This document shows, in pieces, positions 1 through 29,717 of a stretch of 29,787 nucleotides of DNA. A program made the translations under genes and the position numbers. The stretch is from the NCBI GenBank assembly GCA_022925895.1, contig JAKSYS010000728.1, forward strand, positions 1 to 29,787, read 5' to 3'. The stretch is from Fragilaria crotonensis (Eukaryota > Bacillariophyta > Fragilariophyceae > Fragilariales > Fragilariaceae). Every line of letters begins with the position of its first letter. Position 1 is the first letter of the stretch. The notes under the pieces are model-generated. The model was given only the letters and a program-made list of their open reading frames with translations. It was not told the origin of the DNA and searched no databases.

Positions 1-805
1 CAGTAGGAGGGCCTGTAGGAGCAGATATATGGCAGCTAGGGGTGTCAGATGGAGACGGTGAAGGCTGAGGAGATTCGGTAGGTGTTGTCGATGTAGGATC
101 TGGCGTGATCATGGTGTCATGCTGCTCTGTAGTGGGAGTGCAGGATGGAGTAGATGGATTCGCAATAGAAGTAGTTGCACCTCTCGATAGACTTGGAGTC
201 GGAAGGGTCGGCGATGCCGAGGCGATCGAAGCAGAATCAACCTTCTCGGAATCTCCCGATTCCCCTTGCTTCTTTCCTCCTCTTCCGCTCTTCTTTCCGC
301 CTCTGCTGCTCTTCTTTCCATCTCCGCTGCTCTTCTTTCCACCTTTGCTTGTCTTCTTTCCACCAGTGACGCTATTGTCATCTCCTCCACCACTCGTTCC
401 TCCCTTCCCATCAGCGCTTGCTCCTTTATCTCCCTTGCCATTACTGCAATCCTTACTCTCGACAGAATTTGGGTGAGAAATAGTTGGCACGTCGCTGTGA
501 TGTTGAATTTCTCGTCCCTTGTGGCCACCCTTCGCGGCCTTGACGTCCTCCTCAGCCTTCGACCGGGGCCTTGTGTCGCCATCTCCCTTGCCTCTCATCG
601 TCTTGTCCCTCCCTTTGATAGAATTGCCTTCGCCTTTTTCGGTGATCTTCAGCCTCGTCTCCTCCTTCTCTACTTTCGCCGTCTTCAGGGGCACATCACT
701 TTCGACCAACTTGTCCTCAGGGGACGAACGACTGATTCGAGCGGAGACCGCAGAACTTCTGGTAGCCATGAGCATCAGGATAGCGAGGATCCTGACGAAA
801 TTCAT
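1..805 (-). CDS. Secreted Lys/Ser/Gly-rich silaffin-like protein, C-terminus beyond the window
   Basis: From the ATG at 805-803 the minus strand stays open for 268 codons to the window edge, so the 3' end is missing. Seen: residues 1-22 form a signal peptide (Met, Arg5, a Leu/Ile/Met core, then an AVSA cleavage site). Residues 23-148 are charged with scattered Lys and KxxK motifs (K41/K44/K47, K89-AA-K92). Residues 150-184 are five heptads each starting with KK. Residues 190-268 are Ser/Thr/Pro-rich with Cys222 and Cys258. Across residues 99-198 I count 20 Ser and 16 Lys. Known of the family: diatom silaffins and cingulins are secreted, low-complexity, Lys/Ser-rich proteins whose lysines carry polyamines and whose serines are phosphorylated, and they guide silica formation. 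Inference: a silica-associated or cell-wall protein. It could instead be another low-complexity extracellular matrix protein. The ATG was chosen because it gives the signal peptide. Confidence 0.72.
   Translation of the reverse strand, partial: MNFVRILAILMLMATRSSAVSARISRSSPEDKLVESDVPLKTAKVEKEETRLKITEKGEGNSIKGRDKTMRGKGDGDTRPRSKAEEDVKAAKGGHKGREIQHHSDVPTISHPNSVESKDCSNGKGDKGASADGKGGTSGGGDDNSVTGGKKTSKGGKKSSGDGKKSSRGGKKSGRGGKKQGESGDSEKVDSASIASASPTLPTPSLSRGATTSIANPSTPSCTPTTEQHDTMITPDPTSTTPTESPQPSPSPSDTPSCHISAPTGPPT
254..358 (-). repeat. Five 21-bp tandem repeats encoding KK-containing heptads
   Basis: Within the silaffin-like gene, Lys pairs occur at residues 150/151, 157/158, 164/165, 171/172 and 178/179, exactly every seven residues. 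The heptads read KKTSKGG, KKSSGDG, KKSSRGG, KKSGRGG and KKQGESG. The DNA repeats begin with AAGAAG after a GGA glycine codon and are degenerate at later positions. KKSG and KKSS resemble the Lys-pair/Ser context of known silaffin peptides. Confidence 0.8.
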
Positions 806-1766: not shown

Positions 1767-4017
1767 TTACACAGCTAAGATGGCGTAGTTTCGTCGAACC
1801 AGAATGCTGCTGATAACCATGAAAACAATGCCAGGAATAACCAGCAAGTTCAATAGATTGCGGATGCTTATAAGGCCCATGGCGGTGATTAACAAGTCAC
1901 CAGTCGCTCGACCGCTCGTCCCCACAAGAGTTGCAAGTAATCCAGAGTTGAACGTGCCTACCGCAAGAGCAGAAGGTACCACCTTACTCATCAAGGATGC
2001 AACAAACGATTCGCAAGCTTCAATACCACTGAATGCGATTAAACTCCCGGCTATGTAACGAGCCGGTCCGACTGCGAGCGGATGGCCTGCGTTGTAGGTA
2101 TCGTTAGAATGGTCCACCAAATCTGTGACATCAACCAGTATGAACATCCCAATCACGGTGATGCCAAGCAACCACATTGCCATCAGGCGGTCTTCAAAAA
2201 ATTGTGATATCCATCCAGAGAGAACTGAAATAGGGATAACGATAAGGCCATTTACTAAATGCAGGGTGCCCACGTTGCTAATCGACCACTTGAATCGATT
2301 CTTCGTGATTACAGAGGTCGATCCCACGATGGACTCCAAAGCGATGCGTTTCATAAATATGATGGCCATACAAAGCGCTGCGGCTTTTGTCATGTGCTTC
2401 AAACAGTATGTGGGACTGTTGTGTGAAACTTCTTCCTCGTCGATGTCAGCTTTCCTTAGGTGTGAGCTGTCGACAGAATCTTCGTCATCGCCGCCGTCAT
2501 CGCTCCACACCGTTTGGAAGTCTTCTTCTCGTTGACGTAACTCCTCAAGGCCAGATCGATTCGGTTCTCCAAAGGTGAACGTCACCAGAAGCGTGTAGAT
2601 TGACCATGCAACAGCCATGAAATACCCAGGCCCTGTCATCCCATTAAAGTACTGTTTCCCTAAAATCGGCAACGTGAATTCAAAATTATAAAGATCCAAA
2701 ACGATTGCCATCCCCGGTCCCAGAGCAGCTCCAAGTGCTGTCATTAGAGCAAAGGCCGCACTCGATGCGGTCCGAAGCGAAAAGGGCGTGGCATCCGCAA
2801 CGTATCGTCGATTGATAACGCGAGGAGCACCCAGACCACAAACCGCGCGACCCACCAAGCACATATTGATACTCTGATAGGAATATGCGTTGGAGTAGAG
2901 CAGATTACCGACAATCATGAGGACACCAGAAAACATGATAGGCTGCTTGTAGGACGTGTTCGTCCAGAAAGAGTACCCAACAGCGCTGAGGAGTGCAAAC
3001 CATGCTGACGCTCCAATCATGATTCCTGATAGGGCATCAGACTTTCCAAGGGCGTTGGCATAATATGCACTTGAAGGCTCGATAATGTAGTTATTCATCA
3101 TGAATAAAAAGCATGAGAACAAGTTCAACACGAGCGGCCACACGTTCGAAGGGTGTAATTCCTTGGGCTTTGACGCCAGAATCTTCGTGTCACGCCACTT
3201 AGCCAAGATTCGCATTTCTTGCTTCAGATGCCGCCCTGATTGATACAGAAAGCTTGGTTCCAACATCAATCCCAACTTGGAACTCCCCTTGATCAAAAAT
3301 TGGCGACTCGACGATAGCATTCGATCCTTGACAGCGATGTTTTCTCCGCCAGCTCGTTCCACAGATTGGAGGGATGAATCAAGGATCAGACGAAACTGGT
3401 AGTATTGTTGAGAGAATTGAGTCAACTCTTGACGCATCTGTCTAGATTTCATGTATTGGGATACGGCTGTTTCCATGTGTTTCAGATGTTCCAATTCAAA
3501 CAATTTGCGAGCCTGTGGAATATCTGATTCCGCAATCGGCGTCGCATCAACGGTCCTCCGAAAGCTATTGTAACGTATTATGATTTGTCGTAAGGAGCAA
3601 ATGTTGGCGACTATGAAATGGAATGTCTCCAATGTCTCGGCGGCGACTTCTTTGGATCGTCACAAAGCCGCCTTCGAGGCTCACGAGGGATTTTTTCAAC
3701 TCGTCGAGTTGCACGTCCGCGAAGATACGACATCGTTGCAATTGCTGATCAAACGACTGGATGAATTCTTCTCGTTCCAAGGATGCAAGTCTCTGCTGAG
3801 CTACTTCCGAAGGAACCTCGTGAGAATAGTAGTCATCCTCCGATACCATGAGGTCTGTGGAGTACTCGATCTCGCCCCTGTTTCGCCACGCCCGTCGTCT
3901 TTCGAGGAAGTATCGCATCGTCTGCTTCAGAAGCGCATAGTCGATGTAATGCTGAGACCAATCATGTTTATCATCGTTTCGTACTGATCGTTGGAGGTAA
4001 GTCTCAAAGGTTCTCAT
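1767..4017 (-). CDS. SPX-MFS vacuolar-type phosphate transporter, copy A, with a one-base frameshift
   Basis: Two overlapping frames (4017-3565 and 3632-1767) together match intact copy D (27468-29717) end to end. Copy D spans 2250 bases and this locus 2251. The frame is broken by one extra T in the run at 3651-3653 (plus strand), giving CCAAAGAAG on the coding strand where one A fewer would restore the match around VTIQ-x-VAAET. The N-terminal frame encodes the SPX domain (helix with WSQHYIDYALLKQ). The downstream frame encodes SPX helix 4 and the MFS domain with the motif GRAVCGLGAPRVINRRYVAD and an acidic loop between the two MFS halves. Family role: phosphate transport at the vacuolar membrane (plant PHT5/VPT type). 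Inference: either a very young pseudogene or a sequencing error, because no other disruption is present. ATG and TAA agree with copy D. Confidence 0.85.
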
Positions 4018-6657: not shown

Positions 6658-9135
6658 ATGAAGTTCCAAAGTGGTGGTACTGGGTCCGTTATACTCAAGC
6701 TCTGCCGTTTAGTTGTATTTGCGTCGGCAGTGAGCTGCTCTATTGCTATCTTCAAACTCGAGTTGATCACCCTTCAAGTGCATACTACCATTCTAAAATC
6801 CACGAACGTATCCATTCCAAAAAATTACGAAAGTTTCTGGTCGGAGCAGTTTGAATTTGATGAGCATGAACGAGGTGGATCGATTCACGAATTCGAATTA
6901 GCTTTGACGGCATCATACCATGGATTTGAATCTGCTGGTAAGCAGGTATATACCGACGAAATAGAAGGGCCTACGATCGTAACGGTACACGAAAGTGCAG
7001 TTCTTGCCGATGGCATGCAAACGGATGACCCGAATCCTGACCTGAGCGCTAGACCAGAAACGATTCGCTTCGTTTTGTTCCTTTGCGACTTATCATTTTT
7101 CAACGGAGCTGTTGCTCTCTTGGCATCACTTGCAGAATCCAAAAGCGCGACATCGCTTCCACCCCTTGTAATGGTCATGGAAGATGTTCCTATCCAACCT
7201 GTTGAACAAGAAATACTCGAGGCCCTCGGAGCTCAAGTCAAGGTAGTGGACCAACCTCAGGAATTGGCAGATGCAATTAAAGTGCGAGGTTCGAAAGTCA
7301 AACAACGTTGGAGAGGCGTCTTCTCGAAAATGCACTTGTTTCGACGAGGCGTTGTTGAATGCGATTTAGTCTTTTACATTGATGTCGACGCCGTGGTGCG
7401 CGGGAATGTCATGGAATGCATGAACGATATCATTCAATTATTCCAATCGAAACCCGAACTTGACATATTGGCTTCCGGGAAACGCAAATATTTCAACAAC
7501 GGAGTCATGCTGGCAAGACCCAGAGACTCGACTTTCTCGTACCTAGTTGAGATGCTTCGAAATGGTACTTGTGTGGGTGACTGTACGGACAGCGATTATA
7601 CGACGATGATGAGACGACGAATAAACACCGATCAAGATGTATTTATTGAATACACCGAACGTTTTCCCAGCCGTTTTGAACCAATCGACGAGGACGCTTA
7701 TCTGAATCTACGTCCGATGCATTATCCGAATGATACCCATGCAACTTGCTCTGTGATCCACTATGCTGGTGGACCGAAGCCATGGGAAGCGTGGTTTTCA
7801 CTCCCTAACATCAGCATTCCCGTTGATGACTCTCGGCTGCCGATGCTGCCAGATTATTTCCCGGAATCTCTGAAGGCCCTGAAGAAGCGACGAAAGAAGC
7901 GAGGAAAGCCTTGGGCTCTTCGAGAGTGGTCGCTAGAGGTGTGGCGTGATTACTGGAATCGAGCTGTGACTTTATTGCAGGTCGACCGAGAGTTTAAATC
8001 AGTCCTGACGACATCATACAATGGAAGTGAAATCGCGGGGGAGCAGGTACAGACAAACAAAATCGAAAGGTCGGCTATCGCAATCACACTGGGACGCGCA
8101 CATGATGCTGAAGCAATACTTTTGGATGATGCAAAGCCAGACGTGACTGCGCGACGAGAAACGACTCGCTTCGTCCTTTTCCTGTGTGACTCATCATTTT
8201 TCAATGGAGCTGTTACTCTCTTGGCATCACTTGCAGAATCCAGCAGTGCGACATCACTTCCACCCCTTGTAATGGTCATGGAAGATGTCCCTATCAAGCC
8301 TTTTGAACAAGAAATACTCGTGGCCCTCGGAGCTCAAGTCAAGGTGGTGGACCAACCTCAGGAATTGGCAGATGCCATTCAATTGCGAGGCTCGAAAGTC
8401 AAACAACGTTGGAGAGGCGTCTTCTCGAAAATGCACTTGTTTCGACGAGATGTTGTGGATTGCGATGTAGTCTTTTACATTGATGTCGACGCCGTGGTGC
8501 GCGGGAATGTCATGGAATGCATGAACGATATCATTCAATTATTCCAATCGAAACCCGAACTTGACATATTGGCTTCCGGGAAACGCAAATATTTTAACAA
8601 CGGAGTCATGCTGGCTAGACCCAGAGACTCGACTTTCTCGTACCTAGTTGAGATGCTTCGAAATGGTACTTGTGTGGGTGACTGTACGGACAGCGATTAT
8701 ACGACGATGATGAGACGACGAATAATCACCGATCAAGATGTATTCATCGAATACACCCAACGCTTTCCAAACCGTTTCGAACCAATCGACGAAGACTATC
8801 CTCTGAATGTCCGACCAATGCACCATCGGGCTGATATCCATGCAACGTGCTCTGTGATCCACTATGCCGGAGGACCGAAGCCATGGGAAGCGTGGTTTTC
8901 AATCCCTAATATCACCATACCCCTTGATGGCTCTAGCCTGCCGATGCTACCTGAGTATTTCCCGGAATCTCTAAAGGCCCTCAAGAAGCAACGAAAGAAG
9001 CGGGGAAAGCCTTGGGCTCTTCGAGATTGGTCGCTAGAGATATGGCGCGATTACTGGAATCGAGCTGTGATTCGATTGCAGGATCACTCAGAGATTTTGT
9101 CGCCACCACTTGATGTTTTATTTGAGGAGCGTTAA
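6658..9135 (+). CDS. GT8 (glycogenin-like) glycosyltransferase with two tandem catalytic domains, gene 1
   Basis: 825 codons, intronless, ending in TAA. Residues about 12-32 are a single hydrophobic segment after a short cytoplasmic tail, as in Golgi type II proteins. Stem 1 spans 77-130 and GT8 domain 1 about 135-440. A second stem unit starts at Arg444, followed by GT8 domain 2 at about 503-808, so the protein repeats with a period of 367 residues. Each domain has a DxD metal/nucleotide-sugar motif (D242-V-D244; D609-V-D611), the FNNGVM motif (from 279; from 646), a TDQD motif and an HYAGGPKPW motif (from 368; from 735), all typical of GT8. Both domains therefore look catalytically intact. 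Donor and acceptor sugars cannot be read from the sequence. GT8 members include glycogenin and xylan glucuronosyltransferases. The start is the ATG shared in position with genes 2 and 3. Confidence 0.88.
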   Translation: MKFQSGGTGSVILKLCRLVVFASAVSCSIAIFKLELITLQVHTTILKSTNVSIPKNYESFWSEQFEFDEHERGGSIHEFELALTASYHGFESAGKQVYTDEIEGPTIVTVHESAVLADGMQTDDPNPDLSARPETIRFVLFLCDLSFFNGAVALLASLAESKSATSLPPLVMVMEDVPIQPVEQEILEALGAQVKVVDQPQELADAIKVRGSKVKQRWRGVFSKMHLFRRGVVECDLVFYIDVDAVVRGNVMECMNDIIQLFQSKPELDILASGKRKYFNNGVMLARPRDSTFSYLVEMLRNGTCVGDCTDSDYTTMMRRRINTDQDVFIEYTERFPSRFEPIDEDAYLNLRPMHYPNDTHATCSVIHYAGGPKPWEAWFSLPNISIPVDDSRLPMLPDYFPESLKALKKRRKKRGKPWALREWSLEVWRDYWNRAVTLLQVDREFKSVLTTSYNGSEIAGEQVQTNKIERSAIAITLGRAHDAEAILLDDAKPDVTARRETTRFVLFLCDSSFFNGAVTLLASLAESSSATSLPPLVMVMEDVPIKPFEQEILVALGAQVKVVDQPQELADAIQLRGSKVKQRWRGVFSKMHLFRRDVVDCDVVFYIDVDAVVRGNVMECMNDIIQLFQSKPELDILASGKRKYFNNGVMLARPRDSTFSYLVEMLRNGTCVGDCTDSDYTTMMRRRIITDQDVFIEYTQRFPNRFEPIDEDYPLNVRPMHHRADIHATCSVIHYAGGPKPWEAWFSIPNITIPLDGSSLPMLPEYFPESLKALKKQRKKRGKPWALRDWSLEIWRDYWNRAVIRLQDHSEILSPPLDVLFEER
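6886..7986 (+). repeat. Internal duplication unit 1 of GT8 gene 1
   Basis: Starts at the 56-residue stem unit (His77) and runs through GT8 domain 1. It is 1101 bases long and repeats at 7987. Positions 7367-7624 match 8468-8725 with only two mismatches, while the stem parts are more diverged. Confidence 0.85.
7987..9087 (+). repeat. Internal duplication unit 2 of GT8 gene 1
   Basis: Starts at Arg444 in a second stem unit, directly after the C-terminal RDYWNRAV-type end of domain 1, and runs through GT8 domain 2. It lacks a membrane anchor of its own. The junction lies at the edge of a stem repeat, which suggests unequal recombination at that boundary. Confidence 0.85.
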
Positions 9136-9261
9136 GATGTTGGATCGGACGTCCCTCCCCGAGTTGAGAGTCGTGATACTCATAATTAATATTCTATGTA
9201 ACTTATGTATGTTTTCAGAACTTTTTTGGACATAGACCGATACTTCATTTGTTTAGACGCC

Positions 9262-10781
9262 CACCATCACTTCCGAGCTGTGAGCGATGGATCAGTGTTG
9301 TCGAACGGAAACGCATCTTACGGGTGGATACTTAGTAATCCAAGAGGCGATCGGTTAGCAGAAGGTATCAGACCGGCACGAGGACGACGAGTACATTCAT
9401 ACCGAGCAGAGGCGTGCGGTCTTCTGTCCTTTCTTCGCTTCCTCATAAGGATCGCCGACTTTACACAAATGCATGAACACAATGGCACGGAATACTTGCA
9501 ACGGACTGCCAAAGTGTACTGGACACGTCGTTCGGACGAGATCGAGAAGATAACAATGAAGACGCGCCCGTAGATTTCGACAACCACCGTGTGGTGCTGG
9601 ACGCCTTATGTCCAGAGTGGGATGTATTGATTGAGATTCAAGAGGCCCTCCGAGTTCTACCAGGATCCGCCTCCGATTTGTGGCAAGTCATCAAGACCAG
9701 AAGCAACCATAGCAAGCTCTCGAGCTTCTCGAACAACTTAATGTGGACGCGGATCGCATCGCCGACGAATATCACGAACTTTTGCATCCACAGAGGCCAT
9801 ATGTGCTAATGTCCCCGCACGCAAGAGCGCACTTAGTGTTCGAGGATGGCACTGTAACAGCAAGATACGCAGAGTTCATCGAGATACAGGCGACCGCAAT
9901 GCCATTGATGCGGCATCTGGCAAGGAAACACTGCTGGAGCGAAGCCGTGATGGAAACAATCAATTGGAAAGCCCATGGTCAAGCACTCAAGAGGAATAAA
10001 CATCGACGGTCCCACTTTGTGAAAATGGGACATGATATCCTCCCAACAACAAGTCTGCGAAACAAAAACGACGGAGGAAACAGAACATGCCCCCTCTGCC
10101 AACATCCACGCGAAGATAGCGATCACATTCTTCGATGTCACCATCCTTCACGAGCCGAATGGCGTCTCACCTTTCTTCAAGGAATCTCGGAGTATTGCAA
10201 CAAAACGGACACTTATCCCTCGATACTGCTTCTCCTCACCACAATCATGCAGAGCTGGATGAGCGGAGAAGACAACCCACGGATAGAAAGAGATCAATAT
10301 CCATCAGATATGAGTTCCATCATACGGCAACAAACAAAGATAGGATGGCGACATCTGTTCCATGGAAGATTCTCCCAGGAGCGACACCCAGCAGCGATAT
10401 CACGAACGTAAGTTCCCTGCTCAACAGAATACATCTGATAAGTGGCAAGTGGGCTTAATCCAGAAGATATGGGAACACTGGCATAAGGTCTGGACACGAC
10501 GAAACGAAGACCTACATGGCAAGGATACCAGTAGTCGCCAACAGGCTGCGCGGGTGGATATACAAGGACAACTGATCATCATACATTCCCAGCGACCAAT
10601 GATGGAAACGCAAGTGCAAACACTACTACTAGTGTCCCCAGAAGCACATGCTAGGTACCCTTTGCATGTGACAACGAATTGGCTACGAATTCATACAACA
10701 ACATTCTCCCACAGCGTCAAGCGTGTGAAAACGGGGAGTGAGATCCATCCGTTCATGTTTCAGTCCTACATCAGCGGTTGA
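9262..10781 (+). pseudogene. Decayed RNase H-domain retroelement fragment
   Basis: Three plus-strand reading frames join into one degenerate protein. At 9280-9440 there is an RNase H start (VSDGS..., later SYRAEACGLLSFLRFL with the second acidic residue). A short piece around 9591-9700 (CPEWDVLIEIQEAL) is in another frame. From about 9713 (LELLEQLNVDADRIADEYH) to 10400 a third frame includes a CPLCQ...HILRC zinc-binding motif near 10090-10135. The tail around 10437-10600 (WHKVWTRRNEDLHG) is in yet another frame. Frameshifts lie near 9580, 9700 and 10390. Known: such RNase H plus zinc-motif proteins are widespread in diatoms and derive from non-LTR elements. No reverse transcriptase domain is in the window, so this is a 3' fragment or an RNase H-only relative. 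Confidence 0.75.
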
Positions 10782-11141: not shown

Positions 11142-14100
11142 TCATGCTTCCGTATCGCCCTGATGACGAGCATTGTTAAGGAATACAGCCTTACAGAAGC
11201 TGCTGTCGAAGTCCATGGCGCATCTATGTGTCTTGAATTCTTTCAGCACCTTTTCTACCTTCACTGGAGACGCAGAGTCGTCGTCGATGCCGGAGTCCAT
11301 TGTTGCTGAATTGGTAAGTTGCTTGTGTCGTATTTTGTGATATGCTTGCATGTATGCTCGGGCGCGTTGTGGAAAGAGTCGTACTCGCTCTGTTGTCACC
11401 ACATTTCGTGAGAAGCATGCTCTCACTGTCCTTCGAAAGTTGTCCTTCCGCGCTTGTCCTTCAGAGGTTGTCTTTGATAATGATTCTTGGCGCATCCCCA
11501 TGCATATTCAATCCCCTCTCCAGCCAACTCACAATGGCATTTCGGAGTTCGATCCATAAATACGCCCATCTCCGTTGCCTTGAGTTGAAGCATCGTTTCT
11601 TGGCCCTCAAAGTCCTTGAGGTTTGACATGAGGTAGCGAAGGCTTGTGTCTTTTCTGAGTGCTCCCATTGAATCTTTTTTACCATTAACCGTATAGGTTC
11701 TTCAATCCTGACTGGGATCAATCCATCCACGCTCCCAAAGAATCTGCTCCATCCCTTTTGCTTTTCCTTCCCAGCCTTGAAGCACATCTTGTTTCTGGTA
11801 AGTGAGTGAGATGACTGCGCGTTCTGCCATGTTCCTGATATGTTTCTTACTTCCTTTTGCATTCTCAATGCCTCACTGCCGGAGCAGCTCAATCAGCTGT
11901 GGCTTGGTGTGCTCCTTTGTAGTAACCGTCGTTACGAAATGATCTTTCCTCGTTTGCTCTTGTTCTTCTGGAGTCATCCAGTATGGCCCGTTGTCTGTGG
12001 AACGGAAGACCATAGATTGAACGTCGCCCACATTGAGACTGCGGTTGTGTGGTCCAAGGTATCCATCTTCACCTTTGATAATGCTATCTCTCATGATGTT
12101 TTGCTCACCCCCGTATCCCTTGTTCATTCCATCTACTCGCAGCGCATCTTCGGGCATTCTATTGTGACCGCATGAGTGATCAAATAGGAAAAGGAAGTCG
12201 TACTGGGGATACAGAGTTGTGACAACATCAGCGCAGTCTTCCAATTGAAGGACCATTGAATCGTATGTCCAGTATCCTTCTGCAGACGCTCCATACTCGA
12301 ACTCCAGAACAAAGGGACTTATGGTAAGTGGCTGCTTGAATTCGCTTCCTCGTTTCTTCTTGGCCGCCAACTCATCCTTGTATTTCTTTCCAAGTCTATT
12401 AGCATTCACGCGTTGGAGTTGTTCGGTTGTTAGCGACACTCCAAACCCAAACTCACGTGAAGCAAATCCGGACATCATCACTCCAAGGCCATCGTCTTTT
12501 GGTATCAGTGCCTGTTCGCGATTTGGCCCAGTCCAACTCTTGTTTGTAAATGAATACTGTTTGACAATGCATTCGTCTTGACCGAACGAAATGACAGGGC
12601 GCTCATCCGGATTCATTCGCACGCTGAGATTTCCGCCAAATATAGTTTGTTCGTTCATGCAATCCATGAATCCTCGGCAGGTGTCAACATGATACTCCAC
12701 CATTGCTTTTCCGGTAAGTTCGTCGGTGTACTTGTATCCGCTGCCCTTTGTGACTTCGCCTAACGCTTGCAGTTTCTCCGCCTCTTCCAGACTTACTTGA
12801 ATCCACCGAAACATTCTGCGCTCAAGCGATAGATATCGGTCGCAGAAGTCCCACCGATATTGAACTGTTGCCTTCCTTTCATGTCCGTCAACGTAATATC
12901 CCTTTCGACGTGTTTCATATCGAAATCCTAGCTTCAACATCCATTGGTAAGTCGTCTTACGACAGAGACAGCTTAAGCCGTACTCTTGGAACAGATTCAA
13001 CTTCTCTTCTTCAAACTCACAATTGATTATTTCATTCTGTCCTTGCAGGCGTTCCATGACAAGCGATTTTACAATTGTATCGTGAAGATACGAATGCATC
13101 ATCTCGACTGAAAGCTCAGTAAGATTCGCGCGGCCATACTCTTTTATCACAGTAACGACAATAGGATGTGCCTCTAGGAAAGCAGGTAAGTCTCTGTTGC
13201 CCTTTCTCTTGATGGAAAACAATTTCTTCTTACAAAACTGAACATGCCATCGTCGCAGAACTCTTTCGTTCGTTATGTATTTTATATGAACGGCAGCAAG
13301 TTGATCGATTGCATCACGGCAGCAATCATTCCACTTCTTGAATGGCATCTCCTCAATGGCAACACGGTAAGCCTGCGCGAGGTATCTTGCTTTCATTCTT
13401 ATGTCCTCTTTCTTGTGCTCACTCATTGTGTCCTCGTCATCCTCAGAATCCAAACCCTCGACAATTGTTTTGAAGGCGACAGCAGATGAGTTTGCGTTGT
13501 CGAGGACGGCAATCAATTCCTCAACTCGGTCGAGTACAGTCTCCTTGTCTTCGGAGGCATTAAAAAGCTTGAATGCCAGTTTCGACTGCCACCAGATATT
13601 GCATCCTGGAGGAAGCTGGGGCTTTGTGTCGGACTCTTGTTCCGTCTTTATCGTTATGCTGGTCGGCGTCTCCTGCTCATCTCGATTGCTGCTGCTACTA
13701 GAAGTATGATTGGAAAGACGGCATGCTGGTACTACTTGTTCGGTATGCTGACTAGTTGTCGGAGTAGAGTCTTGACAACAAAGTCTTTTAGCTGCTCTTT
13801 CAACCTCTTCTTCTTTATTTTGTCGTTTACACTGGATTGCTTCTTGGTTCTTTGCGATTGTCACCAAGTCAATTACATCGGGCGGAAACTGCCGTTGTTC
13901 TTTGTTTCGGGTCGCACGTTCCAGTGCCCTTATGTCATCCATCATATCTGGGATAGTGGCAAACCAAGCCTTTCCTAATGATGGACTCTGGACATGATCG
14001 TTTCCATTTGGATCACACAGATAGTAACAATGATTTCTTCGCTTGGTATCTTTTGGGCGGTAGGTATCGTAATAGATCCCAAACTGGTTTGGAGCTGACT

Positions 14101-14338
14101 TTTCTGCCTGCATATCTAGCTTCAATGCCGGATCTTTCAACAAAGCATTATTAAGATCATTGGCATTGAATTGTAGGGGCTCTGGAATTGTAAACCACTC
14201 ATGACAGAGTGCAACAAGGTGGTCAGCAGTCCGCCACTTGTGTCGGAAACAAGTTTCACGACAAAGGTACTTTACGGAGCTTCTGATGAACCGATACCTT
14301 TCTCTTGGGTGGAGCCAAATGGATGACTGCATTCTCAT
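11142..14338 (-). pseudogene. Decayed DDE-type transposase (Tc1/mariner-like fold suspected)
   Basis: An 821-codon open frame runs from the ATG at 14338 to TGA at 11873. Similarity continues in the same frame past this TGA and a second TGA at 11702-11704, then shifts frame near 11440 and ends at 11142. Seen: a long N-terminal DNA-binding-like region, first Asp588 (GQDECIVKQY), second Asp720 (FLFDHSCGHN), and the third acidic residue expected in GIEYAWGCAKNHY at 11507-11509, beyond both stops. A KPQLIELLRQ-x-GI stretch across the first stop looks like a SAP-type helix. Inference: no complete catalytic triad can be made, so it is inactive. Both stops could come from CGA by C-to-T change. The wide spacing between Asp720 and the Glu is unlike classical mariner, so the superfamily remains unsettled. 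Confidence 0.78.
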
Positions 14339-14511: not shown

Positions 14512-14883
14512 ACACAGAGCTACAAGAAGGATCCGAATTTTTTACCCAGCCATACAGCTTTTACTCTGATGTTGATGTTAAACTCCTACAAAGCTGTGAT
14601 TCTTCGAACCAGAAGAAAGCTGAACAGACTGCTGCACATGCTGATCAGGCCTGTGGCAGTGATCAGCAAATCGAACGTCGCGCCACCATCAGTCCCCAGT
14701 CCCCACACGGGTTGCCAACCATCCAGAGTTCAGCGTGCCAGCTCCTAGAACAGCAGGCACCACATAATTACTCATCAAGAATGGAACAAACAATTTGCTA
14801 GCTTCAAGCCTACTGAAAGCAATCAAACTTCCAGCAATGTAACAAGCAAATCCAAATGAGGGTGGTTGATCTGCCTTGTCCAC
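14512..14883 (-). pseudogene. SPX-MFS copy B, C-terminal remnant
   Basis: The minus strand from 14883 to about 14597 encodes a degenerate match to the last ~95 residues of the intact transporter, including YIAGSLIAFS-x-LEAS, LMS-x-VVP and GTLNSG-LAT-VGT, then in other frames the ending before the stop. The start of the match on the plus strand, GTTACAC, is the same string found next to the stops of copies A, C and D. Everything upstream of residue ~650, including SPX and most of MFS, is absent. Confidence 0.8.
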
Positions 14884-21552: not shown

Positions 21553-23346
21553 ATGACATCATTCACAGAAAGAAGGCAATACTCTAGACCAGCGAGGATT
21601 GGGGTCCTCGTCGTGCCAATGAAGTTGCAAGGTGATAGTGCTGGATCCATTGTACTCAAACTCTGCCGTTTGGTTCTATTTGCTGCGGTGATGATATGCT
21701 CTATTGCTGTTTTCAGATACGAGTCCATCACCCTTCAAGTGCATACTACCGTTCTTAAGGTCTCGAATGCTACCTATCCACGCAGATACAACAGCCTTAG
21801 AGTTGAGCACATTTTGGCTGATCAGCACGGCAAAGATGTATCAGGTCACGACGTTGAATCAGCCTCGACAAAATCTTACAATGGAATTGCAATCGCTGGG
21901 AAGCAAATACAGTCCGACGAAACTGAAAGGTCGCCTGTTGAAGTAACTAAGGGAAGTGCAGCTGATGTTAAGAAGACACAGCTGAATGATACCATGCCTT
22001 TCGAGGAAGCTATTCACGAAGTTGAATCAGCCTTGACGGCATCTAACGATGAAAATGAAATTGCTGGAAAGCAGAAAGACACAAACCACAGCGAAAGGTC
22101 TCCTATCGAAGCAACAAAGGCAAGTGCAGTTGATGCTGAGAGGACGCAGCTGAACATTGCCAAGGTTCCCGAGGATGCCATTCCTGAAGTTGAATCAGCC
22201 TCGACGGCATCTTACAATGGAAGTGAAATCGCTGTGGAGCGGATACAGACCGACGCAATCGAAAGGTTTCCTATCGCAATGGTAAACGAAAGTGCAGTTC
22301 CTGCCGATAGAATGCACCTCGATGACACTCGTGCTGAGGTGACCGCTAAACCAGAAACGACTCGCTTCGTTCTTTTCCTGTGTGATCTATCGTTTTTCAA
22401 TGGAGCTGTTGCACTGTTGGCATCGCTTGCAGAATCCAGGAGATCGACATCGCTTCCACCTCTGGTAATGATAATGGAAGATGTTCCTATCAAGCCTTAT
22501 GCACAAGAAATACTCGCGGCCCTCGGAGCTCAAGTCAAGATGGTGGATCAACCTCAGGAATTGGCAGATGCCATTCGATTGCGAGGCTCGAAGGTAAAGA
22601 AACGTTGGAGAGGCGTTTTCTCGAAAATGCATCTGTTTCGTCGAGACGTCGTGGATTCCGATATAGTTTTTTACATTGATGTGGACGCCGTGGCGCGCGG
22701 GAACGTCATTGACTGCATGGACGATATCCTTCAATTCTTCCGATCCAAACCCGAACTTGACATACTGGCAGCTGGGAAACGCCAATATTTCAACAACGGA
22801 GTCATGCTGGCTAGACCGAGGGACTCGACTTTCTCGTACCTCGTTGAGATGCTTCGAAATGGCACTTGTGTGGGTAATTGCACGGACAGCGATTATACGA
22901 CGATGATGAAACGACGAATAGACACTGATCAAGATATATTCATTGAATACACCCAACGCTTTCCAAACCGTTTTGAACCAATCGACAAGGACTCTCCCCT
23001 GAATGTACGACCGATGCACCACCGGAATGATATCCATGCAAATTGCTCTGTGGTCCACTATGCAGGCGATCCCAAGCCATGGAAGGCGTGGTTTGCAATC
23101 CCAATTCTCAGTATACCCGTTGATAACTCTATCCTGCCGATGCTACCAGAACATTTCCCGGCACCTCTCTTGGCCCTTATGGAGCGGAAAATCAAGGAAG
23201 GGACGCCTTGGACTACTCCTGTTTGGTCGCTAGAGTTGTGGCGTGATTGTTGGAATCAAGCGGTGACTCGGTTGCAGGGCCAATTAGAGATTTCGTCGTC
23301 ACCACTCGATTTGTTAACTTACGCATCAAGATCCTCAACTGGATAG
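21553..23346 (+). CDS. GT8 (glycogenin-like) glycosyltransferase, gene 2, three stem repeats
   Basis: 597 codons from the upstream ATG, ending in TAG. The ATG that aligns with the starts of genes 1 and 3 is the in-frame one at 21619 (Met23), so either start is possible. Hydrophobic anchor at about 36-54, then a lumenal stem made of three 56-residue repeats (99-154, 155-210, 211-263), then the GT8 domain (about 270-575). Motifs: D376-V-D378, F413-NNGVM, TDQD near 458-461, and HYAGDPKPW from 502. All key residues are present, so it is likely active. It probably acts in the Golgi; substrate unknown. The 3' neighbour is SPX-MFS copy C on the opposite strand, 137 bases away. The part 22219-22523 is identical to gene 3. 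Confidence 0.88.
   Translation: MTSFTERRQYSRPARIGVLVVPMKLQGDSAGSIVLKLCRLVLFAAVMICSIAVFRYESITLQVHTTVLKVSNATYPRRYNSLRVEHILADQHGKDVSGHDVESASTKSYNGIAIAGKQIQSDETERSPVEVTKGSAADVKKTQLNDTMPFEEAIHEVESALTASNDENEIAGKQKDTNHSERSPIEATKASAVDAERTQLNIAKVPEDAIPEVESASTASYNGSEIAVERIQTDAIERFPIAMVNESAVPADRMHLDDTRAEVTAKPETTRFVLFLCDLSFFNGAVALLASLAESRRSTSLPPLVMIMEDVPIKPYAQEILAALGAQVKMVDQPQELADAIRLRGSKVKKRWRGVFSKMHLFRRDVVDSDIVFYIDVDAVARGNVIDCMDDILQFFRSKPELDILAAGKRQYFNNGVMLARPRDSTFSYLVEMLRNGTCVGNCTDSDYTTMMKRRIDTDQDIFIEYTQRFPNRFEPIDKDSPLNVRPMHHRNDIHANCSVVHYAGDPKPWKAWFAIPILSIPVDNSILPMLPEHFPAPLLALMERKIKEGTPWTTPVWSLELWRDCWNQAVTRLQGQLEISSSPLDLLTYASRSSTG
21847..22341 (+). repeat. Three tandem 168-bp stem repeats in GT8 gene 2
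   Basis: Units begin at 21847, 22015 and 22183, exactly 168 bases (56 codons) apart, each opening with a (D/E)VESA-(S/L)T-x-S motif and carrying a conserved ER(S/F)P near the middle. The third unit is slightly shortened and runs into the catalytic domain. Confidence 0.88.
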
Positions 23347-23483: not shown

Positions 23484-24057
23484 CGTTACACCCCCACGAT
23501 GTTGTAGTTTCGTCGAACCAGGAAAACGCTGATAATCACAAACAAAATGCCAGGAGCAACCAATGGCAAGTTGCCAACGCTGTTTGCACGTCTCATTAGC
23601 ATGGTCCACTAAATCAGTTACATCCACCAACACGAGCACGCCAAGACGACATACCGAACAACCATATTTCCATAAAGCGATCATCGAAGAACTGAGGTAT
23701 CCCGCCAATCGTTATGGATATAGGATATAGGCATAACAAAGGCCATTGACTACATGACTGCTGCAATTGACCCTACAATCGAATCGAGGCGATGCATTTC
23801 ACAAAAGCGATGCTTATGCGCAACAATGCCAATGCCGCTTTCAAGCAAAATGAGTGCATGACTAGGGCACTTCTTTATTGCTTATTGCTTAAGCCTGCTT
23901 CAAATGTTCTGTGTCAGGAGATTCGTCGTCGACATCCCCGGCATCCTCCTTCCAAAGCGTTTCAAAGTCCTCTTCTCTTCGTCCCAACTGCTCCAAGCCT
24001 CCTGGAGGGAAGAATCGAGGATCCGTCGGAACTGGCAGCACGGCTGAGCTGCTGCGA
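23484..24057 (-). pseudogene. SPX-MFS copy C, reduced by internal deletions
   Basis: Pieces align in order with copy D. 23484-23570 matches the C-terminus. 23590-23890 matches the stretch around VLVDVTDLVDH back to the acidic loop. 23890-24000 matches the loop (RREEDFETLWKED). Then there is a jump to about 29070 of copy D (SPX linker; GGAGGGA-GAATCGAGGAT). About 240 bp and about 800 bp are missing relative to copy D, the latter covering the first MFS half, and frames are broken. The SPX domain start is absent. It is clearly non-functional. Confidence 0.82.
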
Positions 24058-25723: not shown

Positions 25724-27346
25724 ATGAAGTTCCAACATGATTATCAGAACGTTAGCAAATACTCCACACCAGCAAGGCGCGGCCAAGTCGTGGTTACGAT
25801 GAAGGTCGAAGGTGATAGTACTGGGCCAGTTTTACTCAAACTCTGTCGATTGGCTTTGCTTGCTGGGTTGCTGATTTGGTCCATGGCTATTCTCAGATAC
25901 GAGTCCATCACCATTCAAGTTCATGCTACCGTTCTAAAAGTCACGGACGATACCGATTCACCCAAAAGCAGTAGCCTCAGGTCTGAGCAGCCTTTAGGTG
26001 ATCAGCATGGAAGAGATGGATCAATTAGCGAAGTTGCATCAGCCTTGACGGCATCTAACGATGAAATTGAAATTGCTGGAAAGCAGATAGACTCCGACAG
26101 CAGCGAAAGGCCTCCTATCGAAGTAACAAAGGCACGTGCAGTTGATGCTGAGAGGACGCAGCTGAATAATGCCAAGGCTCACGATGTTCTGATTCCCGAA
26201 GTTGAATCAGCCTCGACGGCATCTTACAACGGAAGTGAAATCGCTGTGGAGCGGATACAGACCGACGCAATCGAAAGGTTTCCTATCGCAATGGTAAACG
26301 AAAGTGCAGTTCCTGCCGATAGAATGCACCTCGATGACACTCGTGCTGAGGTGACCGCTAAACCAGAAACGACTCGCTTCGTTCTTTTCCTGTGTGATCT
26401 ATCGTTTTTCAATGGAGCTGTTGCACTGTTGGCATCGCTTGCAGAATCCAGGAGATCGACATCGCTTCCACCTCTGGTAATGATAATGGAAGATGTTCCT
26501 ATCAAGCCTTATGCACAAGAAATACTCGCGGCCCTTGGAGCTCAAGTCAAGATGGTGGACCAACCTCAGGAATTGGCAGATGCCATTCAATTGCGAGGCT
26601 CGAAGGTAAAGAAACGTTGGAGAGGCGTTTTCTCGAAAATGCATCTGTTTCGTCGAGACATTGTGGATTGCGACGTAGTCTTTTATATTGATGTGGACGC
26701 CGTGGTGCGCGGGAATGTCATCGACTGCATGGATGATATCCTGCAATCCTTCCGATCCAAACCCGAACTCGACATATTGGCCGTGGGCAAACGCCAATAT
26801 TTCAACAACGGAGTCATGCTGGCTAGACCGAGGGACTCGACTTTCTCGTACCTCGTTGAGATGCTTCGAAATGGGACTTGTGTCGGTAATTGCACGGACA
26901 GCGACTATACGACGATGATGAGACGACGCATAGACACTGATCAAGATGTATTCATCGAATACACCCAACGTTTTCCCAACCGTTTTGAACCAATCGACAA
27001 GGCCTCTCCCCTGAATGTACGACCGATGCACCGTCGGTTTGATGTCCATGCAAACTGCTCTGTGATTCACTATGTTGGTGAGCCCAAGCCATGGGTGGCG
27101 TGGTTTGCACTCCCAAATATCAGTACACCAGTTGATGGCACCAGCCTGCCGATGCTACGAGAACATTTCCCGGAATCTCTCAAGGCCCTAATAGAGCGTC
27201 AAAAGGAAAAAGGGACGCCTTGGACTACTCCAGTTTGGTCGCTAGAGGTGTGGCGTGATTATTGGAATCAAGCGGTGACAGGGTTGCCTGGCCGCTCAGT
27301 GACTTCATCTCTACCACTCGATGTGGTAGTAAAAAGTGCGCGATAG
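25724..27346 (+). CDS. GT8 (glycogenin-like) glycosyltransferase, gene 3, two stem repeats
   Basis: 540 codons, ending in TAG. The ATG aligned with the starts of genes 1 and 2 is the in-frame one at 25799 (Met26). The 25 residues before it come from a segment with its own ATGAAGTTCC string, so the true start could be either. Anchor at about 38-58, stem of two 56-residue repeats (102-157 and 158-210), GT8 domain about 216-520. Motifs: D323-V-D325, F360-NNGVM, TDQD near 405-408, HYVGEPKPW from 449. All catalytic features are intact. It faces intact SPX-MFS copy D with 121 bases between the stops, the best-preserved cassette of the window. Golgi location and glycosyl transfer are inferred from the family; the sugar is unknown. 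Confidence 0.88.
   Translation: MKFQHDYQNVSKYSTPARRGQVVVTMKVEGDSTGPVLLKLCRLALLAGLLIWSMAILRYESITIQVHATVLKVTDDTDSPKSSSLRSEQPLGDQHGRDGSISEVASALTASNDEIEIAGKQIDSDSSERPPIEVTKARAVDAERTQLNNAKAHDVLIPEVESASTASYNGSEIAVERIQTDAIERFPIAMVNESAVPADRMHLDDTRAEVTAKPETTRFVLFLCDLSFFNGAVALLASLAESRRSTSLPPLVMIMEDVPIKPYAQEILAALGAQVKMVDQPQELADAIQLRGSKVKKRWRGVFSKMHLFRRDIVDCDVVFYIDVDAVVRGNVIDCMDDILQSFRSKPELDILAVGKRQYFNNGVMLARPRDSTFSYLVEMLRNGTCVGNCTDSDYTTMMRRRIDTDQDVFIEYTQRFPNRFEPIDKASPLNVRPMHRRFDVHANCSVIHYVGEPKPWVAWFALPNISTPVDGTSLPMLREHFPESLKALIERQKEKGTPWTTPVWSLEVWRDYWNQAVTGLPGRSVTSSLPLDVVVKSAR
26027..26353 (+). repeat. Two tandem 168-bp stem repeats in GT8 gene 3
   Basis: Units begin at 26027 and 26195. The second is almost identical to the third unit of gene 2, and the first resembles the second unit of gene 2. 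Copy number therefore differs by one unit between the two genes. Confidence 0.85.
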
Positions 27347-27467: not shown

Positions 27468-29717
27468 TTACACCCCCAAGATGCTGTAATTTCGTCGAAC
27501 CAGGAAAAAGCTGATTGTCATGAACACAATACCAGGAATAACAACCAAGTTCAGCAGGTTTCGAATACTGATGAGGCCCATGGCAGTGATCAGCAAATCC
27601 CCGGTCGCTCGACCACTGGTACCCACAAGGGTCGCCAACAATCCAGAGTTAAGCGTACCGGCTGCTAGAGCAGAAGGTACCACTTTACTCATCAAGGATG
27701 CAACAAATGATTCGCTGGCTTCGAGACCACTGAACGCAATCAAACTTCCAGCAATGTAGCGAACAGGTCCGACTGAGAGCGGTTGATCAGCATTGTATGT
27801 ATCATTAGTATGGTCCACCAAATCAGTGACATCGACCAACACAAGCATGCCAACTAATGACATGCCGAGCAACCACATTGCCATGAAGCGATCTTCGAAG
27901 AACTGCGATATCCAGCCAATCGTTATGGAGATAGGTATAACAATCAGGCCATTGACCAGATGCAGTGTGCCGACGTTGGTAATTGTCCACAAATATCGAT
28001 TTTTGGCGACTGCTGATGTTGACCCTACAATCGACTCGAGGGCAATGCGCTTCATGAAAGTAATGCTCATGCACAACAATGCTGCTTTCGTCATGTGTTT
28101 CAAGCAAAACGAAGGCTTGATCATGGGCAATTCTTCCTTGCTTTTCCCCGCTTCATTCAGATGCTCTGTGTCAAGAGATTCGTCGTCTTCATCCTCGTTG
28201 ACATCCTCCTTCCAAAGCGTTTCAAAGTCCTCTTCTCTTCGTCGCAGCTCCTCTAAGCCTGATCGGTTCGGTTCTCGAAAGGTCACAATCACGAGGAGTG
28301 TGTAGATTGACCACGCAAAAGACATAAAATACCCCGGTCCTGTCATTCCATTGAAATACTGTTTCCCCAATATCGGCAGAGTAAATTCAAAATTCAAAAG
28401 ATCCAAAACAATGGCCATCCCAGGCCCCAACGCTGCTCCGAGTCCAGTCATCAAGGCGAATGCCGCGCAAGATATGGTTCGCAACGCAAACGGCGTGGCG
28501 TCCGCAACGTAGCGTCGATGAATAACGCGAGGAGCACCCAAGCCGCAAATGGCACGTCCGATTAAACACATGTGGATGCTCGAATATGAGTATGCGTTAG
28601 AATATATGAAATTCCCAATCATCATGAGAGCCCCTGCAAACATGATGGGTTGTTTGTAGGACGTGTTTGTCCAGAATGAGTACCCAATTGTGCTAAAAAG
28701 AGCAAACCAAGCGGACGCTCCAATCATTATCCCCGACAGCGCGTCCGATGTTCCGAGGGCGTTGGCATAGTATGCACTTGAAGGCTGGATTATGTAATTG
28801 TTCATTATGAACAAAAGGCATGACATCAAATTCAAGACGAGTGGCCAGACATTTGATGGATCCAACTGGCTCGGCTTAGATGCCAAAATCTTCGTGTCAC
28901 GCCATTTGGCCAACGTTCGCATTTCTTGCTTCAAATGACGTCCTGCTTGAAAACTTGGTTCCAACATCAGCCTCATCTTGGAGCTTCCCTTGATCAAAAA
29001 TTGCCGGCTTGATGAGAGCATACGATCCTTAACAACGTTGTTTCCACCACCTCCACATTCCACAGATTGGAGGGAGGAATCGAGGATCAGTCGGAATTGG
29101 CCGCACTGCTGGGAAAATTGAGTTGCTTCTTCATGCATGTCTCTGGATCTACAATAAAGCGATATAGCAGCCTGCACACGCGTCAGTGGCTTCAACTCGA
29201 AGAGCTTGCGGACCAGCGGAATATCTGATTCGGCCACCAGAGTCGCTTCGACGGTTCTCCGAAAACTATTGTAGCGAGTAATGATTTGGCGTAATGTGCA
29301 AATGTTGGTGACAACGAAATGGAAGGTTTCGAGTGTTTCCGCGGCAACGTCTTGGATTGTCACACCTTGGGCCTCGAGGCCCTTTAGAGCAACTTTCAGT
29401 GTTTCAAATTGTTCGTCAGCGAAGGTTGCGCACTTTAGAAGTTCTTGATTAACAGACACGACGAATTCTTCTCGTTCCGAAGATGCAAGTCTCTGCTGAG
29501 CTACTTCCGGAGAAACCTCGTGAGAATAGTATTCATCCTCTGATATCATGAGGTCTGTGGAATACTCGATCTCGCCCCTGTTTCGCCATGCCCGTCGTCG
29601 TTCCAGGAAGTATCGCATCTTCTGCTTCAAAATAGCATAGTCGATGTAATGCTGAGACCAATCATGTTTATCATCTTTGCGTACTGATCGTTGGAGGTAA
29701 GTCTCAAAGGTTCTCAT
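27468..29717 (-). CDS. SPX-MFS vacuolar-type phosphate transporter, copy D (intact)
   Basis: 749 residues, uninterrupted. Residues 1 to about 170 form an SPX domain: N-terminal MRTFETYLQ, helix WSQHYIDYAILKQKM, and helix 4 around 130-155. A linker follows to about 288. The MFS domain spans about 290-740, with hydrophobic segments near 291-310, 329-347, 357-373, 413-440, 463-480, 541-557, 575-600, 611-630, 653-672 and 721-740. The signature GRAICGLGAPRVIHRRYVAD is at 387-406, and a long acidic loop (about 480-540) lies between the MFS halves. This order matches plant PHT5/VPT and other eukaryotic SPX-MFS carriers that store phosphate in the vacuole, with SPX sensing inositol pyrophosphates. 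The usual Lys-rich helix 4 motif is replaced by 141-TLRQIITRYN, so sensing may differ. The ATG is supported by alignment with copy A. Confidence 0.92.
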   Translation of the reverse strand: MRTFETYLQRSVRKDDKHDWSQHYIDYAILKQKMRYFLERRRAWRNRGEIEYSTDLMISEDEYYSHEVSPEVAQQRLASSEREEFVVSVNQELLKCATFADEQFETLKVALKGLEAQGVTIQDVAAETLETFHFVVTNICTLRQIITRYNSFRRTVEATLVAESDIPLVRKLFELKPLTRVQAAISLYCRSRDMHEEATQFSQQCGQFRLILDSSLQSVECGGGGNNVVKDRMLSSSRQFLIKGSSKMRLMLEPSFQAGRHLKQEMRTLAKWRDTKILASKPSQLDPSNVWPLVLNLMSCLLFIMNNYIIQPSSAYYANALGTSDALSGIMIGASAWFALFSTIGYSFWTNTSYKQPIMFAGALMMIGNFIYSNAYSYSSIHMCLIGRAICGLGAPRVIHRRYVADATPFALRTISCAAFALMTGLGAALGPGMAIVLDLLNFEFTLPILGKQYFNGMTGPGYFMSFAWSIYTLLVIVTFREPNRSGLEELRRREEDFETLWKEDVNEDEDDESLDTEHLNEAGKSKEELPMIKPSFCLKHMTKAALLCMSITFMKRIALESIVGSTSAVAKNRYLWTITNVGTLHLVNGLIVIPISITIGWISQFFEDRFMAMWLLGMSLVGMLVLVDVTDLVDHTNDTYNADQPLSVGPVRYIAGSLIAFSGLEASESFVASLMSKVVPSALAAGTLNSGLLATLVGTSGRATGDLLITAMGLISIRNLLNLVVIPGIVFMTISFFLVRRNYSILGV

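Follow-up and report, generated by a model that had tools for sequence, protein, structure and literature searches.

The window analysed here is the whole of one contig of Fragilaria crotonensis (contig C700, 29,787 bases), and the gene of interest lies at its left edge on the minus strand, where the contig end at base 1 cuts it off. A single frame of 268 codons opens with an ATG at 805 and runs without a stop down to base 2, its 3′ side being open, and 19 codons, none of them for Met, separate this ATG from the closest in-frame stop 5′ of the frame. An earlier note on this DNA had described a 268-codon open frame at 1-805 whose stop lay outside the window; the frame is as described and no stop is seen, but this is because the contig itself ends here and not because of where a window was drawn. 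As the left edge is the contig end, this assembly offers no way to complete the gene, and our guess is that the break is due to the repetitive sequence encoding Pro, Ser and Thr. When the genome (62,107,879 bases in 881 contigs; GC 46.5% across 25 sampled stretches) was searched for a second copy of the DNA at 1-805, by a method that passes over simple repeats and very frequent words, none was matched. The features of the gene are collected in Table 1.

Table 1. Features of the open frame at the left end of the contig (positions in the window).
Feature	Position	Strand	Basis
5′ part (268 codons) of the gene for a predicted secreted Ser/Lys-rich protein, 3′ end lost	2..805	-	Open frame, coding score, contig end
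Signal-peptide-like N-terminus, residues 1-22	740..805	-	Home-made rule, hydropathy
Basic region with few hydrophobic residues, residues 23-196	218..739	-	Composition
21-base tandem repeat encoding KK heptads	269..364	-	Tandem repeat, KK spacing
Pro/Ser/Thr-rich tail, residues 197-268, running off the contig	2..217	-	Composition, XP[TS]X motifs

Elsewhere in the window two MFS transporter genes on the minus strand (1767-4017 and 27468-29717) have about 77-79% protein identity. A single frame change near 3652 breaks the left copy, which is either decayed or affected by an assembly error; this copy gives a weak indication of an SPX-type N-terminus (17.4 bits, cut-off 27.8), and the right copy gave no SPX match. 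Two short minus-strand pieces (14601-14877 and 23559-23999) have 40-70% identity to the same MFS protein and are probably remnants of more tandem copies. A tandem family of glycosyltransferase family 8 (GT8) genes occupies the plus strand at 6658-9135, 21553-23346 and 25724-27346, the first of these ORFs having two GT8 units within one 825-aa frame and the second a 168-base tandem repeat (2.6 copies, 21846-22276) ahead of its GT8 domain. Two plus-strand ORFs at 9205-10411, with weak, below cut-off matches to RVT_3 and zf-RVT, are perhaps a decayed non-LTR retrotransposon, and an 821-aa frame at 11873-14338 on the minus strand, with no Pfam or NCBIfam family over its cut-off, is at a guess a putative transposase-like gene. 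Nothing in the window reached a gathering score in Rfam and a tRNA scan detected none.

Whether the frame at the contig end is coding was judged with a fourth-order codon-phase model. Its training set was 53 unannotated ORFs, each 300 aa or longer, drawn from the 25 sample loci, from two transporter loci and from the remainder of the window; the background was built from the same loci, candidate region included. With one locus left out each time, the model picked the correct frame for 81 of the 83 held-out chunks, which were 268 codons long. The 805..2 frame scores +0.082 per codon, the other five frames -0.116 to -0.386; the value lies above the 75% point and below the 95% point of the held-out chunks (held-out median 0.036), and the score is positive in each third of the frame (0.107, 0.117 and 0.030). 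A synonymous-codon test agrees, giving this frame the highest z of the six (4.84, with two other frames at 3.94 and 3.37). On seven training genes this test put the true frame first in six, its lead being 0.5 or less in two of those correctly ranked (826 and 598 codons), and in a gene of 541 codons two other frames ranked above the true one. It thus discriminates poorly in this genome and the phase model was therefore relied upon. That there is no gene here, and that the stretch is low-complexity sequence which happens to be open on the minus strand or which carries its real frames on the plus strand, might be argued from the other long frames that overlap it (plus strand 266-931, 221 aa; 105-476, 123 aa; 519-860, 113 aa; minus strand 109-582, 157 aa) and from order-2 Markov resamples of 1-862, of which 3 in 2000 were equally open, with an M-started frame of at least 268 aa; so small a share also means that the frame is longer than chance would readily give. 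Given that 805..2 is the only frame positive in a model with the held-out record above, we regard this as very improbable. The plus-strand reading of 1-805 was rejected, all plus frames being negative in the phase model, and the 805..2 frame is very probably a real gene.

The composition of the encoded protein was compared with that of known silica proteins, drawing on papers cited below by PMC number. Residues 23-196 (174 residues) contain 29 Lys, 10 Arg, 25 Ser, 31 Gly and 28 Asp plus Glu, so that the net charge is only about +11, and there is no Tyr and no Trp among the 268 residues. The Scheffel screen selected proteins in which, per 100 aa, Ser makes up 18% or more and Lys 10% or more, together with an ER signal peptide, and yielded 89 genes in Thalassiosira pseudonana (both as cited in PMC3478156). 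The remark in the earlier note that silaffin-like screens use similar Ser/Lys cut-offs agrees with this, and its figure of 20% Ser and 16% Lys for residues 99-198 is correct, as we counted 20 Ser and 16 Lys per 100 there. Of the 169 windows of the visible protein, 61 reach the Scheffel cut-off. As a rough control, in which ATG-to-stop frames of at least 100 aa from 250 kb of the same genome were taken as proteins and introns ignored, the Ser/Lys cut-off was reached by one of 297 ORFs, a home-made signal-peptide rule was passed by 20 and both by none; when only ORFs of 250 aa or more (67) were counted, the numbers were one, five and none. The sole ORF in this sample that reaches the Ser/Lys cut-off (locus L026, 1-843, minus strand) runs off the fetched stretch; its N-terminus is highly charged with no signal-like start, and its product is therefore probably not secreted.

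The N-terminus of the protein, MNFVRILAILMLMATRSSAVSA, passes the signal-peptide rule. A cut is first accepted by the rule after residue 17, and cleavage may fall after A22. Arg at position 5 is followed by hydrophobic residues from position 6, and in the visible protein a mean hydropathy of at least 1.5 is reached only by 8-residue windows that begin at residues 2-9. The rule is crude, as its passing by 20 of the 297 sampled ORFs indicates, and the one other Ser/Lys-rich ORF of the sample lacks a signal-like start, both of which would suit a signal peptide mis-called in a basic protein that is not secreted (nuclear or associated with RNA) or in a plastid or periplastid protein. This we consider improbable, as the only hydrophobic windows lie around and behind Arg 5 and are followed by small residues, and as the protein has a mucin-like tail; secreted proteins are typically the ones with such tails.

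The arrangement of the lysines was examined next. Six KXXK motifs are found if any X is allowed (at residues 41, 44, 89, 124, 151 and 154), so that the KxxK motifs reported earlier are present, but five of the six are not of the type in which X is S or G, the single such motif in the 268 visible residues being KGGK at 154. The KK-heptad array reported with them holds in full: KK doublets stand at residues 150, 157, 164, 171 and 178, a spacing of exactly seven, and are encoded by a 21-base tandem repeat (269-364; 4.6 copies, 85% match). The 250 kb genome sample holds 558 stop-free stretches of 100 aa or more, and none of them has three KK doublets at a spacing of seven; the five exactly spaced doublets are the most distinctive feature of the protein. 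Other lysine motifs of silica proteins were sought in the visible part. The screen of PMC5501833 looked for KXXK motifs, X being S or G, that recur at intervals of one to six residues, and ten new proteins from it had pentalysine clusters in eight cases and a protease cleavage site in all ten; the visible part of our protein has one K[SG][SG]K only and hence no such repeat. A pentalysine cluster, defined in T. pseudonana silaffins as five non-consecutive Lys within 12-14 residues and predicted at least once in all known silaffins (PMC9650480), does not occur in the visible part when five non-adjacent Lys in 14 residues are looked for, a count that excludes the missing 3′ part; if neighbouring lysines are allowed to count, five or more are found in ten overlapping 14-residue stretches, which start at 145-154. 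The visible part has no RXL processing site behind the predicted signal peptide either, the only match being RIL at residue 5, within that peptide itself.

A lysine-free tail rich in Pro, Ser and Thr, newly noticed here, follows the basic region. Residues 197-268 contain 47 Pro, Ser and Thr out of 72 (65%) and no Lys, and of 14 overlapping XP[TS]X motifs in the visible protein 13 lie at residue 198 or later; a 70-aa stretch with at least 45 Pro, Ser and Thr was found in two of the 558 sampled stop-free stretches, so that a tail of this richness is not peculiar to the protein. The tail is like the ‘PT repeats’ of TpSIL1, XP(T/S)X repeats that occur in 14 SFLP/KXXK proteins, and it has numerous motifs of this kind, the excerpts of that paper giving no minimum number (PMC5501833). 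This tail raises the alternative that the gene product is secreted and mucin-like, a protein of the surface or mucilage in a colony or adhesive matrix, in which the Pro/Ser/Thr tail would be the working part and the basic region would bind acidic polysaccharide and not silica. That the tail is so rich in these residues, has no Lys and goes on past the contig end fits this well, as does the lack of strict silica-targeting motifs in the visible part. However, PT-type tails are also present in TpSIL1 and other Si-responsive proteins (PMC5501833), and the Ser/Lys content reaches the silaffin-like cut-off, so that we think a mucin-like protein of this kind unlikely, although it is the alternative to which we give most weight.

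The protein was also compared with individual silica proteins. The R5 repeat contains a KK doublet, and our protein shares with Silaffin-1 (Sil1p, R5 repeats) of Cylindrotheca fusiformis repeated KK doublets in a Ser/Gly context, but its unit is of 21 bases and seven residues and there is no RXL-type processing site between units. With the SFLPs of T. pseudonana from the Scheffel screen it shares a signal-peptide-like start and windows that reach the Ser/Lys cut-off; those proteins come from another diatom lineage, the 3′ end is missing here, and the likeness is one of composition. TpSIL1 and the PT-repeat SFLP/KXXK proteins likewise combine a Lys/Ser-rich region with an XP[TS]X-rich stretch (PMC5501833), but the visible part of our protein lacks their repeated S/G-type KXXK and an RXL after the signal peptide. 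The cingulins CinW and CinY have Lys-enriched Ser/Gly stretches behind a signal peptide (PMC9650480), as the candidate has behind a predicted one, but in them regions rich in Trp and/or Tyr alternate with KXXK regions (PMC4557024), whereas neither Trp nor Tyr is present in the visible part of the candidate. In experiments with the R5 peptide activity was lost once all lysines were replaced but a scrambled R5 was still active (PMC4557024), so that a silica protein may do without an exact order of motifs, a point in favour of the silaffin-like reading.

Relatives of the protein were sought in several collections. In its own genome three candidates were scored and at E≤10 the protein matched itself only; no Pfam or NCBIfam family was found at E≤1, phmmer against the PDB gave nothing at E≤1, and among IMG/VR viral contigs a pattern matched 24 stretches of which none was confirmed. 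As the protein has no relatives in its own genome, Pfam, NCBIfam, the PDB or viral contigs, no conservation argument is available for it. That none turned up in these collections carries little weight; between T. pseudonana and C. fusiformis, too, the silaffins are not similar in sequence (PMC4557024). No silaffin sequence from Fragilaria or Synedra turned up in the literature searched by titles and abstract openings, a scope that does not disprove the existence of one, and in the excerpts of a paper on F. crotonensis silaffin is mentioned only through a correlated TPR gene (PMC9732472). Silicon transporters are present elsewhere in the genome and mark it as that of a diatom, with 19 matches to PF03842, of which 18 are over the cut-off and seven have internal stops. 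Three of these matches lie in one frame of 1,428 aa from its first ATG (G000:C97:29000-34500, locus L005), and contig C771 has two in a 1,008-aa frame; the three-match frame resembles the multi-SIT genes described for two araphid diatoms of fresh water, Synedra acus and S. ulna (PMC6114903).

The reading we prefer, to which we give about an even chance, is that we see here the 5′ part of a genuine diatom gene whose product is a secreted, intrinsically disordered cell-wall protein, silaffin-like in the sense of a composition class, the disorder being predicted from composition only. By analogy with the silaffins of T. pseudonana and C. fusiformis, which guided us as to secretion, modification, silica association and every step of function, the signal peptide would carry the protein into the ER; Ser may be phosphorylated and Lys, above all the KK doublets, methylated or modified with polyamines; the charged polymer would then enter the silica deposition vesicle and bind silica or aid its condensation, and the Pro/Ser/Thr tail might become hydroxylated and glycosylated. 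That the protein would be silica-associated seems to us roughly evenly balanced. The earlier note had called it a strong candidate for a new biosilica-associated protein, which goes further than the evidence: the coding frame, the Ser/Lys cut-off and the signal-like start stand (the last under a rule that, as noted, other ORFs also pass), but S/G-type KXXK repeats, a pentalysine cluster and RXL, three motifs that tie such proteins to silica, are missing from the visible part. As these motifs are lacking there and no relative was found in the collections searched, the protein is a candidate silaffin-like protein of the composition class and not a demonstrated silaffin.

Composition alone is a loose criterion, and as the Scheffel screen found so many genes in T. 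pseudonana one more is ordinary; the protein is an ordinary further member of what is probably a large class. The one feature that merits a test is the KK-heptad array with its PT tail. It is a long shot, and in our estimate improbable, that araphid pennates have a silica-matrix protein with a lysine code of its own, KK every seven residues plus a PT-type mucin-like tail, and that this code would replace the interspaced KXXK and pentalysine clusters of T. pseudonana. Should the protein belong to silica, the araphid pennates would gain a candidate of this kind, and its KK-heptad array would let lysine spacing be tested against homology as the determinant of silica binding.
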